A stretch of 60,828 nucleotides of DNA, taken from NCBI GenBank assembly GCA_018818165.1, contig JAHISP010000083.1, forward strand, positions 1-60,828, read 5' to 3'. Made by a program: the position numbers and the translations under genes. Position 1 is the first letter of the stretch, and each line of letters starts with the position of its first letter. Under the pieces are notes generated by a model that made no database searches, was not told the origin of the DNA, and was given only the letters and a program-made list of their open reading frames with translations. This DNA is from Bacteroidota bacterium (lineage in GTDB: Bacteria > Bacteroidota > Ignavibacteria > Ignavibacteriales > Melioribacteraceae). Shown here piece by piece: positions 6,145-50,633 of the stretch.

Positions 6145-7530
6145 TTAATTTTCTCTTGTCTTTTTGTATTCTGCAACAAACTCTTCGCCATATTTCCAAA
6201 CATCACCAGCACCAAGAGTAATAATGATATCATCATCTTTTACAATTTTTAAAAGTGTTGATGATATTTCCTCTTTGTTTTCAATGTATATTACATTTTT
6301 ATGTCCAAAACTCTTTGCAGCATTGGCTATTAGTTCACCAGAAATTCCTTCAATTTTTTCCTCGCGAGCTGGATAAACATCTGTGCAAATAAATACATCA
6401 GAATTTAGAAATGCTCTTCCAAACTCTGTATAAAAATCACGTGTGCGAGAAAACAAATGAGGCTGAAAAACAGTTACTAATCTTCTTTTCCATCCACTTC
6501 TAATACCAGAAAGTGTTGCATTAATCTCTGTTGGATGATGAGCATAATCATCAATTATTAATATTTCATTATTGTATTTAGTTTCAAATCGTCTATATAC
6601 CCCTGTGAAGGATTCTAGTGATTTTTTAATTACCGAAAATTTAACTCCCAATTCCTTTGCAATTGTAACAGCAACAAGCGAATTATTTACATTATGTTTT
6701 CCAGGAATATTTAGTGTAATTTCTCCTAATTCTTCACCTTTGTAATCAACAGTAAAAGTAGTTTTAAATTCATGACATTTTATATCGATAGCTCTAACAT
6801 CCGCTTGCTGAGTAGTTCCATATGAAATAACCTTTTTCTTAATTAAAGGTCTAATATCCTGAAGTGCTGTTTCATCCAAACAAAGAACTACAAATCCGAA
6901 AAATGGAACTTTGTTTGCAAATTGAACAAATGCACTTTTGATATCATCAAGATCCTTATACGTATCTAGGTGTTCTGTTTCTAGTGTTGTAATTGCAGCA
7001 ATGCAAGGAGTTAGACTTAAAAACGTCCTGTCAAATTCATCAGCTTCCACAACAATGTAATCACTATGTCCAAGGCGGGCATTTGTACCGCCAAGACTAC
7101 TAAGCTTTCCACCAACTATGATTGTTGGGTCAATACCAGCCTCTGTTAAAACAAGTCCAACCATCGAAGTTGTAGTTGTTTTTCCGTGAGTTCCAGCAAT
7201 TCCAATTCCATATTTCATTCTCATAGTTTCCGCTAGCATTTCAGAACGTTTTATTACTGGAATATCTTTTTCCATTGCCGCTTTCACTTCCGGATTTGCT
7301 ATATTTACAGCTGATGAATATACAAGAACATCAACATCACTTACATTATCTGCAGAATGACCAATGATTACGGGTATTCCAATGCTTCTCAATCTTTCAG
7401 TAGTTGCTGATTCGTTCATATCAGAGCCAGATATTGTAAATCCTCTATTGAGCATAATTTCTGCTATTCCGCTCATTCCAATACCGCCAATTCCTACAAA
7501 GTGTATTTTATTTATAACATTTTTAAACAT
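6145..7530 (-). CDS. murC: UDP-N-acetylmuramate-L-alanine ligase MurC
   Basis: Cytoplasmic Mur ligase that adds L-Ala to UDP-MurNAc using ATP. Its 461 residues show the three Mur ligase domains. The Rossmann-type UDP-binding start is HFVGIGGIGMSGIAEIM (about 10-26). The ATP loop is GIAGTHGKTTTTSMVG near 110-125. The central metal/substrate region is VVEADEFDRTFL. The C-terminal domain contains DDYAHHPTEI and LGAGDVWKYGEE. ATG with AAGGAT upstream sets the start. It follows murG by 11 nt and abuts ftsQ. Confidence 0.97.
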   Translation of the reverse strand: MFKNVINKIHFVGIGGIGMSGIAEIMLNRGFTISGSDMNESATTERLRSIGIPVIIGHSADNVSDVDVLVYSSAVNIANPEVKAAMEKDIPVIKRSEMLAETMRMKYGIGIAGTHGKTTTTSMVGLVLTEAGIDPTIIVGGKLSSLGGTNARLGHSDYIVVEADEFDRTFLSLTPCIAAITTLETEHLDTYKDLDDIKSAFVQFANKVPFFGFVVLCLDETALQDIRPLIKKKVISYGTTQQADVRAIDIKCHEFKTTFTVDYKGEELGEITLNIPGKHNVNNSLVAVTIAKELGVKFSVIKKSLESFTGVYRRFETKYNNEILIIDDYAHHPTEINATLSGIRSGWKRRLVTVFQPHLFSRTRDFYTEFGRAFLNSDVFICTDVYPAREEKIEGISGELIANAAKSFGHKNVIYIENKEEISSTLLKIVKDDDIIITLGAGDVWKYGEEFVAEYKKTREN

Positions 7531-45438: not shown

Positions 45439-46203
45439 ATGTTGTTAAATAAAGTGGCAATACCAAAGGAACACGGAGCGTGGGGATTTGTGTTGGAACC
45501 ACTAATACTTTCACTAATAGTTGCCTTCTCAGTAAATGGATTATTGCTTGCACTTGCATCATTTATACTATTTTTAGCAAATCAGCCAATTAAAATTATT
45601 TTTACAAAATCTATATCAACCAAACATAAATCAGCGGCGACTAAAATTCTATTCTTTTATTCAAGTATTATCTTTCTGTTATTTGTTGCCATTATTGTAA
45701 ATGCAAAAATAGTTTATTTACTTCCATACGCATTTGGATTATTAGTAATGTTACTTTTCCTTTTTTTTCAGATAAATAATTTGGGAAGATATTTATTTTT
45801 TGAATTTATTCCATCTTTTGGTATTACTCTAATGGCTATTTCAATAGTGCTAATGAATGGTTCGTTTCAATATAATGTGTGGATTTTTGGAATTCTATTG
45901 CTTAGCCGCGCAATTCCAACAATTATTTATGTAAATGCAAAAGTTAAAGAGGTAAAAAGGAAAGATTATTCAAAAGCCGCAACGAATTTAACAAATTCAA
46001 TATCGGTTTTAATTATTTTTTTATTGGGATGGAATTCTTTGCTTCCAGAATTATCTTTTTTAGCTTCAATTATTCTTTTACTTCGTTCAGAGATAGGATT
46101 TTCAAAATTAAACTTTACAAAAACTGTTAAACAAATTGGAATTGCAGAATTTGTTTACGGTTCTCTATTTGTTGTAATAAATGGAATAGTGTTTTTAATT
46201 TAG
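45439..46203 (+). CDS. YwiC-like membrane protein
   Basis: 254 residues and about eight membrane helices. The N-terminus VAIPKEHGAWGFVLEPLILS contains the PKEHGAWG signature of the YwiC-like family. This family has a UbiA-like topology; function is unknown, and in some bacteria it lies near nitrate-respiration genes. The stop codon overlaps the stop of convergent recQ by two bases, which leaves no room for a terminator between them. Confidence 0.85.
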   Translation: MLLNKVAIPKEHGAWGFVLEPLILSLIVAFSVNGLLLALASFILFLANQPIKIIFTKSISTKHKSAATKILFFYSSIIFLLFVAIIVNAKIVYLLPYAFGLLVMLLFLFFQINNLGRYLFFEFIPSFGITLMAISIVLMNGSFQYNVWIFGILLLSRAIPTIIYVNAKVKEVKRKDYSKAATNLTNSISVLIIFLLGWNSLLPELSFLASIILLLRSEIGFSKLNFTKTVKQIGIAEFVYGSLFVVINGIVFLI

Positions 46204-48365
46204 TTTTTATTCTGGAATAAATAATTTAATCTTAATATTCTCAAATCGATGTAACTAACAGTTTCATTCATGGCATCAAAAACAGGGCGTAGAAGCTCAA
46301 CTCCTAATTTTTCAAATTGCTCATAAACTATTTTTTGAGTTCTTTTATCGCATTCTAAGATATTAAAAAGCATTACTGGATTTATTGGCTCAACTAAATT
46401 GCTATACTTTGATAAATGTTCAACCAGAGTATCAATCTTCATATTATATTCATTCAGAATAGCATCAACCGATTTTCCCGACTTAAATTCTTCGCCAATT
46501 ATTTTATACTTTAATTTCTTTACAATTCCACCAACTACATTCCTTTTATTTATAATATTTGAGGAAACAACTGGAATATTAAACTTTTGGCAATAATTTG
46601 AAATAAATAGAATAAACTTTGCACCATATTTATTATACTTAGCCTCACCAATTCCATGAATATTCTTCATGTCTTTTTCGGTTGTAGGAAAAAATGTAGC
46701 CATTTCAATAAGTGTTTTATCAGGAAAAATTGCATAAGGCGGTAATCCACTTTTGTCAGCAATATTTTTACGCGCTGAACGTAAAACACCGAACAGCTTT
46801 TTATCATATTCCAAATTGGTAATACTTTTGCTTTCAAATTTAGTTTCAACATCCAATTTGCCTTTTACTTCAACTTCACCTTTTAATGCAGCATATCCGC
46901 GATCAGTAATTTGCAATCCTCCAAATTCAAAATCCTTGGTTAAAAGACCTCTTACAATTAATTGGTGCGAAATGGATAACCAAACTTCGCGTGGATGCTC
47001 TTTCCCAATTCCATAAGTTGATAACTTATCATGGTTTTTATCTAATACTTTTTGATTTTTAGAACCTAGTAAAATATCTACAATATGCATTGCTCCAAAA
47101 ATTTCTCCTGTTCGCTTAACGCAGCTCATAAATTTTTGAGACTCAACTGTAATATCTGTAAGCTCTTTAACTCCACGATTGCAGTTGTCACAAATTCCAC
47201 AATTTTCTTGATAGTATTCCTCACCAAAATATGTTAGTAGTGGAATTCTTCTGCAAGTATAGGTTTCTGCATAACGAATAAGTTTATCCAAATGCTGCTT
47301 GGCAACTAATTTTTCGCGTCCTTCTTTTTGATCAATAAAATAATTTATTTTATTAATGTCGCCATAACCAAAAAGCAACAAACAATCAGCGCGCAAACCG
47401 TCACGACCCGCTCGTCCAATCTCTTGATAATATGATTCAATGTTTTTTGGTAAATCATAGTGAATTACAAACCTTACGTTTGGTTTATTTATTCCCATCC
47501 CAAAAGCGACTGTAGCAACAATTATTGAAATATCATCCTTAATAAATTTTTCTTGATTCTGCATTCGCTCATTGTCTGAAAGTCCAGCGTGATAAGGCTT
47601 AACAGAATATCCATGTTCATCCAATTCAGCAGTGAGTTCATCAACTTGTTTACGCGAAAAACAATAGATAATTCCCGATTGATTTTTGTGCTTTTCAAGA
47701 AAATTCAAAGTCTGTTTTAATGGAAACGTCTTTTCAACAACTTGAAGGAACAGATTGTCCCTATTAAAACTGGCAACAAACCGATTTGATTTTTTGAATT
47801 TTAGATTTTCAATTATGTCATTTTGAACTTGTGGAGTTGCAGTTGCTGTTAACGCCATAAAAACCGCATCTGGAAATCTAGGTTTTAATGTTGCAATTTC
47901 TCTATAAACTGGACGGAAATCATGCCCCCATTCAGAAATACAATGCGCTTCATCTATGGTTATACAATCAACATCCAATTTTTCTAATAATTCTAATGTC
48001 CGTTCAAGCATTAACGTTTCTGGAGCAACATAAAGTAACTTCACATTTCCATTTCTAACTTGTTCAACATTAAATTGATAATCCAATTGACTCAAAGATG
48101 AATTTAGGAATAAAGCATTTACACCAAGTTCGCTTAATTGCTCAACTTGATCTTTCATTAGCGAAATTAATGGAGAAACCACAACTGTAATTCCGTTAAA
48201 AATTAGTGCTGGAATTTGGTATGTTAGCGACTTTCCACCACCAGTTGGCATTATAACTAATGTGTCATTTTTTGAAATTATATTTTCAATTACTTCTTTT
48301 TGAAGCGGTCGGAAAGAGTGATAACCGAATATTTTACTAAGTATGCCTTCAGCTTTTTTTATCAT
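46200..48365 (-). CDS. recQ: ATP-dependent DNA helicase RecQ
   Basis: A 721-residue 3'-5' helicase for recombination and replication-fork repair. Walker A is VIMPTGGGKSLTYQIPAL (about 37-54), Walker B CITIDEAHCISEWGHDFRP, motif VI YYQEIGRAGRDGLRADCLL. The RecQ zinc site is CRRIPLLTYFGEEYYQENCG followed by CDNC. A winged-helix RQC domain, then an HRDC domain (DKTLIEMATFFPTTEKDMKN), then a helix-turn-helix extension of about 100 residues follow. All family motifs are intact. Confidence 0.96.
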   Translation of the reverse strand: MIKKAEGILSKIFGYHSFRPLQKEVIENIISKNDTLVIMPTGGGKSLTYQIPALIFNGITVVVSPLISLMKDQVEQLSELGVNALFLNSSLSQLDYQFNVEQVRNGNVKLLYVAPETLMLERTLELLEKLDVDCITIDEAHCISEWGHDFRPVYREIATLKPRFPDAVFMALTATATPQVQNDIIENLKFKKSNRFVASFNRDNLFLQVVEKTFPLKQTLNFLEKHKNQSGIIYCFSRKQVDELTAELDEHGYSVKPYHAGLSDNERMQNQEKFIKDDISIIVATVAFGMGINKPNVRFVIHYDLPKNIESYYQEIGRAGRDGLRADCLLLFGYGDINKINYFIDQKEGREKLVAKQHLDKLIRYAETYTCRRIPLLTYFGEEYYQENCGICDNCNRGVKELTDITVESQKFMSCVKRTGEIFGAMHIVDILLGSKNQKVLDKNHDKLSTYGIGKEHPREVWLSISHQLIVRGLLTKDFEFGGLQITDRGYAALKGEVEVKGKLDVETKFESKSITNLEYDKKLFGVLRSARKNIADKSGLPPYAIFPDKTLIEMATFFPTTEKDMKNIHGIGEAKYNKYGAKFILFISNYCQKFNIPVVSSNIINKRNVVGGIVKKLKYKIIGEEFKSGKSVDAILNEYNMKIDTLVEHLSKYSNLVEPINPVMLFNILECDKRTQKIVYEQFEKLGVELLRPVFDAMNETVSYIDLRILRLNYLFQNKN

Positions 48366-48416
48366 AGTGCAAATTTAAGAATTTTTAAATTCAACATTTC
48401 AATATTTTATTTTCTC

Positions 48417-48490
48417 GTAGCACAGATTAGTAATCTGTGTATTTATTATAGCAATTACATTTATTTTCACAGAATGCTATTCTGTGCTAC
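48417..48490. repeat. REP pair (BIME-like) downstream of the RAYT gene
   Basis: GTAG-CACAGATTAGTAATCTGTG (hairpin A, 48417-48439) and CACAGAATGCTATTCTGTG-CTAC (hairpin B, 48469-48490) face each other across a 29-nt A/T spacer. The GTAG foot next to each hairpin is the tetranucleotide known to mark REP elements mobilised by RAYT proteins. The same pair, in the same orientation, ends the array at 49453-49527. Both are followed by ACAAAACCAAAT. Confidence 0.9.
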
Positions 48491-48501
48491 AAAACCAAAT
48501 T

Positions 48502-49089
48502 TTATAAAACCAAATAATTTGGATGACAATAAGTATTGTTCCATTTTTTCCAATCATCAACCAGCCCAGCTTTAACCGGATTCATCAAAACGTATTTTAC
48601 TATATTAAATAGTTCTCGTTCATCTCTAACCAACCTATCAAAACTTTCATCTTGCCAAAACTGACCTGAGCGCCGAAGTACAATATTTGCTTCACGTGCA
48701 GAAATTCTTTTGACTGATTGCATAATTTTACTAATTCCTTTATTCCCATCAAGCAACTCAAAGACTACATGAACATGGTTTGGCATAATACAATAGCAAA
48801 TGAGTTTGTATTCTTTGTTATTTGGAAACTCAAGTGTAGCTTTAACAATTTCAGCAATTGATGGAATTGTTAAATAATTTAATCCCAGTTCATTTGAATC
48901 CAAAAGAGAATCGTATTTTGTAAAAAGACGTTTTTGTTGAATTGATGTTAATTTTTTATAAGCGTTAAATTCTTGTTGCAATTCTTGTAAAGCTATTTGT
49001 GGTATACTATTAGCGAGCCTATAAGTTAAAAAATATTGCCCATCATTATAATGGAGATGAGGCAGATTGCGTCTATGAAATGTTTTCAT
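48502..49089 (-). CDS. REP-associated tyrosine transposase (RAYT, Y1_Tnp)
   Basis: 195 residues of the IS200/IS605-like HUH single-strand nuclease superfamily. The two metal-binding histidines are in YCIMPNHVHVVFELLDG. The catalytic Tyr is in LFNIVKYVLMNPVKAGLVDD. The family-typical GQFWQDESFDRLVRDE is present. RAYTs nick and join REP hairpins and are domesticated relatives of IS200 transposases. The N-terminus HRRNLPHLHYNDGQYFLTYR is standard. The gene is intact and lies between matching REP elements, so this looks like a complete RAYT/REP locus. Confidence 0.93.
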   Translation of the reverse strand: MKTFHRRNLPHLHYNDGQYFLTYRLANSIPQIALQELQQEFNAYKKLTSIQQKRLFTKYDSLLDSNELGLNYLTIPSIAEIVKATLEFPNNKEYKLICYCIMPNHVHVVFELLDGNKGISKIMQSVKRISAREANIVLRRSGQFWQDESFDRLVRDERELFNIVKYVLMNPVKAGLVDDWKKWNNTYCHPNYLVL

Positions 49090-49111
49090 GGTATTTCCTC
49101 TTATTTTTTTT

Positions 49112-49527
49112 CACAGATTAGTAATTTGTGGAAATATAGTACAATTAATTATTAATATTTTTAGCAAAATTTTTTAGAATAAACATGTTTGTAGCACAGA
49201 TTAGTAATCTGTGTATTTATTATAGCAATTACACTTATTTTGCACAGAATAGTGATTTGTGGAAATATAATACAATTAATTATTAATAATTTCTGCATAG
49301 TTTTTTAGAATAAACATGTTCGTAGCACAGATTAGTAATCTATGCCTTTATTTTAGCAATTACGCCTATTTTGCACAGAATAGTGATTTGTGGAAATATA
49401 ATACAATTAATTATTACTATTTTCAGCATAATTTTTTAGAATAAACATGTTCGTAGCACAGATTAGTAATCTGTGTATTTATTTTAGCAATTACGCCTAT
49501 TTTACACAGAATGCTATTCTGTGCTAC
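49112..49527. repeat. 131-bp tandem REP array
   Basis: A direct tandem array with an exact 131-bp period. GTAG-hairpin A begins at 49191, 49322 and 49453. Hairpin B copies begin at 49112, 49243, 49374 and 49505. Each unit holds hairpin A, a spacer containing TAGCAATTAC, hairpin B and a 60-bp A/T-rich segment ending TTTTTTAGAATAAACATGTT. Internal B copies are eroded (CACAGAATAGTGATTTGTG); only the last is a perfect palindrome with CTAC. The array lies just 5' of the RAYT gene. Confidence 0.92.
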
Positions 49528-49723
49528 AAAACCAAATAATATGGTATTTTCTTTAAAACAACACAATTAGTTTAATTGGAAATTTATTTTTAATAAGGCA
49601 AAATATCGTTTTATAATTACGTAACATTTCACTATTTTTGATTTATGAAACAAATAAAAATAAATATCGCCTCAGAAAATCAATCTAAATTCCATTTATT
49701 GGGATATTTTTATACTTGCCTCT
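49528..49723. other. Spacer upstream of cysE
   Basis: AT-rich spacer between the REP array and the cysE regulatory region. No open frame or recognised riboswitch was seen. Confidence 0.5.
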
Positions 49724-49747
49724 GTTAAACCTAACTAACGGTTAAAC
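49724..49747 (+). promoter_or_regulatory. Candidate operator upstream of cysE
   Basis: GTTAAACC-TAACTAAC-GGTTAAAC is an inverted repeat (one mismatch, 8-bp arms, 8-nt spacer), 35 nt before the cysE ATG. TATACTTG directly upstream resembles the Bacteroidota -7 box TAnnTTTG. It could bind a dimeric regulator of cysteine synthesis; this is inferred from position only. Confidence 0.35.
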
Positions 49748-49781
49748 TCATATTATAAACATTTTACAAAAGGCATTAACG

Positions 49782-50633
49782 ATGATTAATGATGATCAAA
49801 ATTTATCCTCATTTGCGGATAAATTATTAGAAAAAAGAAAAGAATATAAACCCCTAAATCCGATAAAATCAGCTTCGCATAGTTTTTTGAATGAATTGTT
49901 GGAACTCCTTTTCCCACACTATTCAGTTAAAAATTACTATAACTCAGAAGAAATTGTGAGCAAAGTCTATTTACTTAGAAGAAACTTACAAGAAATTTTG
50001 ATTTCACTTAATAATGGAATGGAATTTAAGGCAAAGGATTGCTCCAAAACTTTCATTGAAAATATACCAAATGTTCATTCCCTTTTGTTAAGAGATGCAG
50101 AAGCTATTTGTAAAGGTGACCCAGCGGCAAAAAGTGTTGATGAAGTTATATTAGCATATCCTGGTTTTTCGGCAATTGCAATTTATAGATTAGCCCATGA
50201 ATTGTATAAATTGAACATTCCCCTTCTGCCAAGAATATTTACTGAATATGCACATCAAAATAGTGGAATTGATATTCATCCAGGTGCAACTATTGGCGAA
50301 TCGTTTTTTATCGATCATGGAACTGGAATTGTAATTGGTGAAACAGCCCATATTGGAAATAATGTAAAAATATATCAAGGTGTAACACTCGGTGCACTAA
50401 GCGTTGATAAGGATTTAGCCGAAACTAAACGACATCCAACAATTGAAGATGACGTAATTATATACTCAAATGCTGTAATTCTTGGTGGAAAAACTACTAT
50501 TGGAAAAGGTGCTGTAATTGGCGGAAACGTTTGGCTGACACGTTCGGTGCCAGCAAATTCCGTTGTATTCCACAGAAGTGAAATAAATTTTAAAGAAAAT
50601 TTTGAATCAGAAGTTTCAAATTTTATAATTTAA
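49782..50633 (+). CDS. cysE: Serine O-acetyltransferase
   Basis: Acetylates serine to O-acetylserine, the first step of cysteine synthesis. The 283 residues have a helical N-terminal domain and a left-handed beta-helix of hexapeptide repeats: GIDIHPGATIGESFFIDHGT, GIVIGETAHIGNNVKIYQGV and KTTIGKGAVIGGNVWLTRSV. The catalytic His/Asp region is FFIDHGTG. The longer N-terminus fits the SatA/EpsC type of Bacteroidota. It lies 15 nt before cysK. Confidence 0.94.
   Translation: MINDDQNLSSFADKLLEKRKEYKPLNPIKSASHSFLNELLELLFPHYSVKNYYNSEEIVSKVYLLRRNLQEILISLNNGMEFKAKDCSKTFIENIPNVHSLLLRDAEAICKGDPAAKSVDEVILAYPGFSAIAIYRLAHELYKLNIPLLPRIFTEYAHQNSGIDIHPGATIGESFFIDHGTGIVIGETAHIGNNVKIYQGVTLGALSVDKDLAETKRHPTIEDDVIIYSNAVILGGKTTIGKGAVIGGNVWLTRSVPANSVVFHRSEINFKENFESEVSNFII

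Follow-up and report, generated by a model that had tools for sequence, protein, structure and literature searches.

A probable REPtron with a 131-bp tandem array in an Ignavibacteria-type genome, and in-frame REPs in loops of its secreted-protein domains

Introduction

REP-associated tyrosine transposases (RAYTs) of subclass 2.4, which correspond to group 4 of Bertels et al., are known from Bacteroidetes together with REPs that have a GTAG foot or a double foot, and REPs lying inside the tnpA gene are described as special to this subclass (PMC6006769). In Pseudomonas fluorescens SBW25, REPINs occur with their flanks in tandem repeats, and REPIN clusters lie beside each of the three RAYTs (PMC3116915). 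In Escherichia coli, REPINs are commoner where the RAYT gene is present (PMC8049555). Intragenic REPs have also been reported, with loops suggested as possible acceptors; a shared intragenic site is noted there only for recB of two Xanthomonas (PMC3733652).

We analysed a stretch of 60,828 nucleotides (the window), which is contig C34 of the 4.88-Mb draft genome (G000) of an uncultured Bacteroidota bacterium. A preliminary reading of its sequence, referred to below as the original prediction, had proposed a complete RAYT/REP locus and had called such arrays little studied in this bacterial group. The latter claim was partly wrong, as the GTAG and double-foot REPs of Bacteroidetes subclass 2.4 RAYTs had been published (PMC6006769); in the open-licence literature, the matches that pair 'Ignavibacteri' with 'RAYT' look unrelated.

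Results

The window carries an intact RAYT gene (48502-49089, minus strand) encoding 195 residues with the motifs PNHVH, FWQ and YVLMNP. Its neighbours are a recQ-like helicase gene (46200-48365, minus strand), assigned from Pfam domains and context, whose start codon is separated by 52 bp from the start of the RAYT/REP block, and a gene for a cysE-like hexapeptide transferase (49782-50633, plus strand), assigned from Pfam domains; by its context the latter probably encodes a serine acetyltransferase. The RAYT passes the NCBIfam REP_Tyr_transpos model NF047646 (87.5 bits, cut-off 80) and matches PF01797 at 1.9e-8, the Y1 domain having a HUH motif and a single catalytic Tyr. Among solved structures, E. 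coli TnpArep (4er8, E 5e-6) is its sole match at E values up to 1, with the PNHVH (HUH), WQ and YVLMNP (Tyr) motifs aligned. An autonomous IS200/IS605 element was considered and rejected: the NF033573 score of 23.8 bits is below the cut-off of 55, and there is no second copy of this RAYT gene in the genome, the next match being 51% identical over 79 residues. The closest named record comes from a sister species, Ignavibacteriales bacterium CG18 (L049), the RAYT of which is 96% identical. The dN of 0.017 against a dS of 0.071 between the two genes indicates that the protein is under constraint.

REP hairpins lie on both sides of the gene. On its 3' side, hairpin A (GTAG CACAGATTAGTAATCTGTG; 48417-48439, plus strand), with a GTAG foot, an 8-bp stem and a 3-nt loop, is followed after a 28-nt spacer by hairpin B (GTAG CACAGAATAGCATTCTGTG on the opposite strand; 48468-48490, minus strand), so that the pair forms a REPIN running from GTAG to CTAC (48417-48490, plus strand). 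A second REPIN on the 5' side (49453-49527, plus strand; hairpin A at 49453-49475, hairpin B at 49505-49527) closes the tandem array. Folded as single-strand DNA, hairpins A and B have z-scores of -6.1 and -5.0, and each outer REPIN folds into one long hairpin (z -4.8 for 48417-48490 and -5.4 for 49453-49527). The two outer REPINs had been described as the same sequence, which is true of their hairpins; over the whole element, 70 of 75 aligned positions are identical by eye. The open reading frame, the NF047646 score and the hairpin matches bear out the original prediction of an intact RAYT between REP elements with a GTAG foot, and all of its coordinates were correct.

The tandem array on the 5' side of the gene (49107-49523) has a period of exactly 131 bp and about 3.1 copies, with 91% matches and no indels according to TRF, which delimits it at 49107-49512. 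Hairpin A is perfect in unit 1 (49191-49213, plus strand) and has one mismatch in unit 2 (49322-49344, plus strand). The internal copies of hairpin B (49243-49261 and 49374-49392) are eroded, as had been noticed: the CTAC foot is lost and 6 of 9 positions pair, so that the internal units are not REPINs. One more eroded hairpin without a foot (49112-49130), absent from the original prediction, belongs to the array and is separated by 22 bp from the downstream RAYT start. It was tried as a 5'-UTR structure of the RAYT gene and rejected, its fold being no better than that of shuffled sequences (z -0.16). A sigma-70-like scan for a promoter in the repeated unit found 8 sites where 11.0 were expected, and we claim no promoter.

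The array had been called exact. Its period is, but its units are not, with pairwise identities over 131 bp of 0.878, 0.916 and 0.947. L049 has the same spacer and outer pairs as the window, and 15 N inside its array (a scaffold gap or masking) make the copy number of the sister species unreadable. The comparison with the sister species covers 116 columns, of which 103, 105 and 106 are identical between pairs of window units and 103, 106 and 104 between each of these units and that of the sister. The duplications therefore look about as old as the species split, an age judged on non-coding columns, for which the coding divergence of 2.7-3.7% is an unfair yardstick.

The hairpins belong to a dispersed family. 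A genome-wide search, which the original prediction had proposed, gave 99 matches to GTAGCACAGANTNNNANTCTGTG with up to 3 mismatches (52+47, double-foot copies being counted on both strands) and one to the reversed pattern (1+0), and the REP is thus a real dispersed family. Double-foot copies are found at C11:16082, C15:10646 and C22:28846. In the genome stretches scanned, a script listed 55 hairpin places: 9 at the window locus, 8 in the loop of an FN3-like domain, 12 in sorting-domain loops and 26 others. Four of the 55, two of them in the window array, have only 6 of 9 positions paired; some minus-strand coordinates are good to a few bases, and the weak place C9:31043 truly lies elsewhere. 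The 26 other places are mostly outside long open frames. At the mismatch limit used, the C85 cluster alone among them is paired as REPINs; the rest appear as singlets, which may be remnants.

Two local arrangements were seen in this set. At C85:5998-6092 and 6566-6660 (L110), two copies of a REPIN and its flank stand at a distance of 568 bp, and G001, the genome of the sister species, has one copy (L241). At C86:54165 and C9:31539, the REP lies within a short MITE-like element whose inverted ends resemble GGGGTCAAAT / ATTTGACCCC by eye.

A second RAYT, encoded by a 253-codon open frame on C27, is accompanied by another hairpin family and is 37% and 51% identical to the window RAYT in two parts. 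Its locus (L018:873-2206) has a 68-bp array, with 4.5 copies on one side and at least 3.3 on the other, up to the contig end, and the RAYT gene itself holds an in-frame REP between the HUH and Tyr motifs.

The sequences of G001 and L049 are identical wherever they were compared. G001 has the RAYT at the same place, with REPINs on both its sides. Between the window and L049, dS along the block is 0.07 for RAYT, 0.18 for cysE and 0.55 for recQ, an unevenness that suggests recombination between lineages near the locus; the rise from RAYT to recQ within 46200-50633 suggests a recombination edge in recQ. Six of the 26 dispersed REP places (the C85 cluster counted once) are common to G001 in a strict test on both 120-bp flanks, and four further places (C21:20461, C22:51040, C78:68852 and C91:17736) are collinear with G001 by BLAST. 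A clean empty site in G001 was sought with the flanks of nine REP places. Four were recovered and none was clean: the C61 site holds a degraded REP, the C35 and C83 sites are diverged intergenic DNA without a REP, and the C11 site is rearranged. The other five flanks had no match among the 40 of 240 candidates scored.

Three genomes of the same genus (G002, G003 and G004) are without a close RAYT, their matches to the RAYT model all being below the cut-off. They have 2, 3 and 9 REP matches respectively, against 39 and 64 in the two RAYT carriers. Hairpins in strains lacking the gene had been named beforehand as evidence against a link between the two; such hairpins do exist, but in these low numbers. 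None of the 26 REP places passes the strict two-flank test in G003 or G004, and BLAST with longer flanks aligns C22:51040 and C22:249094 with G003 and C78:68852 with G004. In G004, the interval between recQ and cysE holds a single intact hairpin A, at a distance of about 33 bp from recQ, and an open reading frame of about 150 aa, and no RAYT. Beyond the hairpin on the recQ side, the same stretch has by eye an apparent second, interrupted REP half. A RAYT remnant was considered for G004 and set aside: the stretch resembling the 3' end of the RAYT gene (L254 near 2105-2137, by eye) is about 20 nt long, too short to claim loss. G002 has recQ and cysE in the same order as G004, and its two pattern matches are both on other contigs. 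The genus thus offers a series at one locus, with RAYT and REPINs in G000 and G001, a REP without RAYT in G004 and neither seen in G002, which makes the decay or persistence of REPs without a RAYT testable.

Across the family, the hairpin pattern (up to 1 mismatch) is present in 27 of 79 genomes and a RAYT relative, at 1e-10, in 31 of 79. The hairpin occurs in all six genomes whose RAYT reaches at least 57% identity, compared to 21 of the remaining 73 (Fisher p 0.001). At a threshold of at least 44% identity the association is weaker (9/16 compared to 18/63, p 0.07), one reason being that the hairpin changes with the RAYT. Among the 58 RAYT relatives from named genomes, 55 entered a test of proximity, in which GT[AG]G hairpins were found within 400 bp of the gene in 40 of the 55, compared to 5 of 33 pairs in the distal control, for which 22 loci were of insufficient length; in the other 15 relatives the test found no hairpin close to the gene. 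Hairpins of the GTAGCACAGA type occur at 11 of the 18 nearest RAYT relatives (L049-L066), and GTAGCGCG hairpins at 11 of 15 Hymenobacter RAYT loci.

With 150 of 221 candidates scored, the type IX sorting domains (PF18962) of the genome number at least 150. In at least 12 of these 150 (for example L125, L174, L181, L190 and L191), a REP is read in frame in a single loop, between IKYSIP and LKVYDILG. After six domains with an unparsed pattern had been dropped, 77 were parsed; the loop has 5 residues in 48 of them and exactly 11 in all 12 REP carriers, where the REP-encoded part reads STEYYSV or close variants. A 10-residue class comprises 12 domains, with a GTGAAAA-like short repeat as its apparent building block by reading. 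Three more REPs lie in broken sorting domains (C15:5965, C68:470 and C68:4911), and of the 12 sorting-domain places in the 55-place scan, nine are in open frames and three in broken ones. A GGCGAAGCCATCCCTTTGGGAT palindrome is present in three frame-broken, REP-bearing sorting domains (C15 near 5910, C68 near 411 and 4852; L023, L048, L107).

Other repeats occupy the same loop. A GTCATTGCGAG repeat fills it in three domains (L198, L341 and L342, the last two nearly alike), which account for 3 of the 19 genome places of that repeat. A CCCCTCTTG-GAGGGG palindrome is found there in two domains (L217 and L343), and a palindromic ACATTCCATGGAATGT insert in one (L161). In about 430 kb of loci from this genome, L343 not among them, the last two inserts have no copies beyond L217 and L161. 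L198 and L217 have very similar flanks and different inserts.

G070, which belongs to another genus and is without a close RAYT, has 30 pattern matches, mostly in coding modules. Sorting domains contain 13 of its 16 REP places, 12 of them assigned by coordinates and one by reading (for example L283, L291, L299, L303 and L307), and the loop has 12 residues in all five parsed REP domains, one more than in the window genome. A further insert of 25 residues, VSLSNHDNGGVTLRQAQSD, occupies the same loop at L334 of G070; it has no copy in the loci scanned in our genome.

Upstream of the sorting domain, hairpin A is found at one loop of a domain that we call FN3-like, a descriptive label with no Pfam call behind it. 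In these 8 places (L118, L107, L116 and L123), it is translated in frame as VAQISNLC (VAQISNLR in one variant) between FE(I/V)ER and NWE.

A single origin of the sorting-domain REP was considered and not retained. A tree of 113 domain flanks from 4 genomes needs at least 13 label changes, at least 4 of them forced by starred branches, and the tree of the 77 rows of this genome alone needs 8, with 2 forced; these are weak trees (216 columns; stars on 8 of 110 branches and on 5 of 74), with recombination likely and rows sampled non-randomly. Moreover, the flanks of REP rows are more alike among themselves (0.761) than to others (0.660), and module duplication therefore contributes. We consider it somewhat likely that this loop is a recurrent in-frame landing and refuge site for unrelated palindromic repeats, the copies of which then ride with module duplication or recombination. 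Because REP copies would ride with the modules of secreted proteins, the same reading implies that a REP family could outlive its transposase. If so, the sorting-domain loop would show selfish palindromes sheltering in secreted proteins and diversifying them. Among the matches listed from the open-licence literature, no paper connects type IX sorting domains to insertions of REPs or palindromes.

Discussion

The gene, its hairpins, the array, the dispersed family and the co-variation of hairpin and RAYT are very probably the parts of a REPtron, in which the RAYT dispersed REPs and REPINs over evolutionary time and the array is a tandem duplication that is now eroding. The RAYT would be a Y1-transposase-type HUH nuclease acting on single strands and, to judge from the TnpArep literature, would recognise hairpins with a GTAG foot. 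By homology, it may slowly have spread the CACAGA(T/A)T family, REPs and REPINs alike, across the genome, presumably by cleaving and mobilising these elements. Selection maintains the gene, and both outer REPIN pairs are intact. The 131-bp array would have arisen when a promoter-side segment consisting of the spacer and hairpin A was duplicated in tandem, and would since have been decaying. Recombination between repeats, or slippage of replication there, is the most likely cause of the duplication.

Alternatively, the hairpins could be kept as host elements, either bidirectional terminators or mRNA stabilisers, with the RAYT incidental or acting as their regulator. Hairpin A followed by a T-rich tract does look like a terminator at three places of the locus, where 0.3 would be expected; REPs also persist in genomes without a close RAYT, and several REP sites are common to both species. 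However, 20 of the 55 hairpin places are in the two coding-module loops, where a terminator would make no sense, and the type of hairpin tracks the RAYT. We regard this explanation as rather unlikely.

The original prediction went further than a REPtron acting over evolutionary time, proposing an element that is active now or was so very recently, with a RAYT that multiplied its own REP unit on the spot. This claim was not supported, and we consider it improbable. Its array units are as far from each other as from the unit of the sister species, its internal hairpin B copies are without a foot, and 6 to 10 REP places are common to G001 (at least 6 by the strict test). These observations outweigh for us a RAYT that is intact and constrained, outer hairpins that are perfect, a RAYT gene closer than recQ between G000 and G001 (dS 0.07 against 0.55) and REP places of which some are not common to G001. 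Finally, it is very unlikely that assembly or binning of the draft genome produced the array as an artefact, even with a run of N in the same stretch of the sister record and the array of the second RAYT stopping at a contig end, since the units differ mutually, unlike the repeated assembly of one unit, and the spacer is also present in the sister species.

Read as a REPtron, the locus can be set beside the described systems. It resembles subclass 2.4 (PMC6006769) in the NHVH and WQ motifs of its RAYT, in the GTAG foot and the long and double-foot hairpins of the genome, and in the in-frame REP within the C27 RAYT gene. It differs in its Tyr motif, YVLMNP in place of the YIxNNP that accompanies NH[IFV]H and WQ in subclass 2.4, and in that the RAYT gene of the window has no internal REP. 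As in SBW25 (PMC3116915), REPIN-type repeats with flanks are arranged in tandem beside a RAYT gene; here, however, the array has a single full REPIN, its terminal copy, and the hairpin places number in the order of 50, compared to about 1000 REPs in SBW25. With the E. coli TnpArep REPtron (4er8), the locus shares the HUH and Tyr motifs, aligned by sequence, and inverted REP pairs adjoining the gene, whereas TnpArep belongs to subclass 2.2 (PMC6006769) and the window RAYT resembles 4er8 over residues 84-187 only. The palindromes read in frame in proteins, possibly in loops, recall intragenic REPs and the Rickettsia palindromic elements (PMC3733652), with the difference that here they concern paralogous domains in several genera, with the REP at one loop and other palindrome-bearing inserts there as well. 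Since tandem REPIN clusters, clusters beside a RAYT and in-gene or double-foot REPs have already been published, the window locus is a good further instance of a known arrangement. It carries RAYT/REPIN biology into an Ignavibacteria-type lineage, in which one genome has two REPtrons, and what is new lies beside it, in the in-frame REPs of the sorting-domain loop and of the loop in the neighbouring domain.
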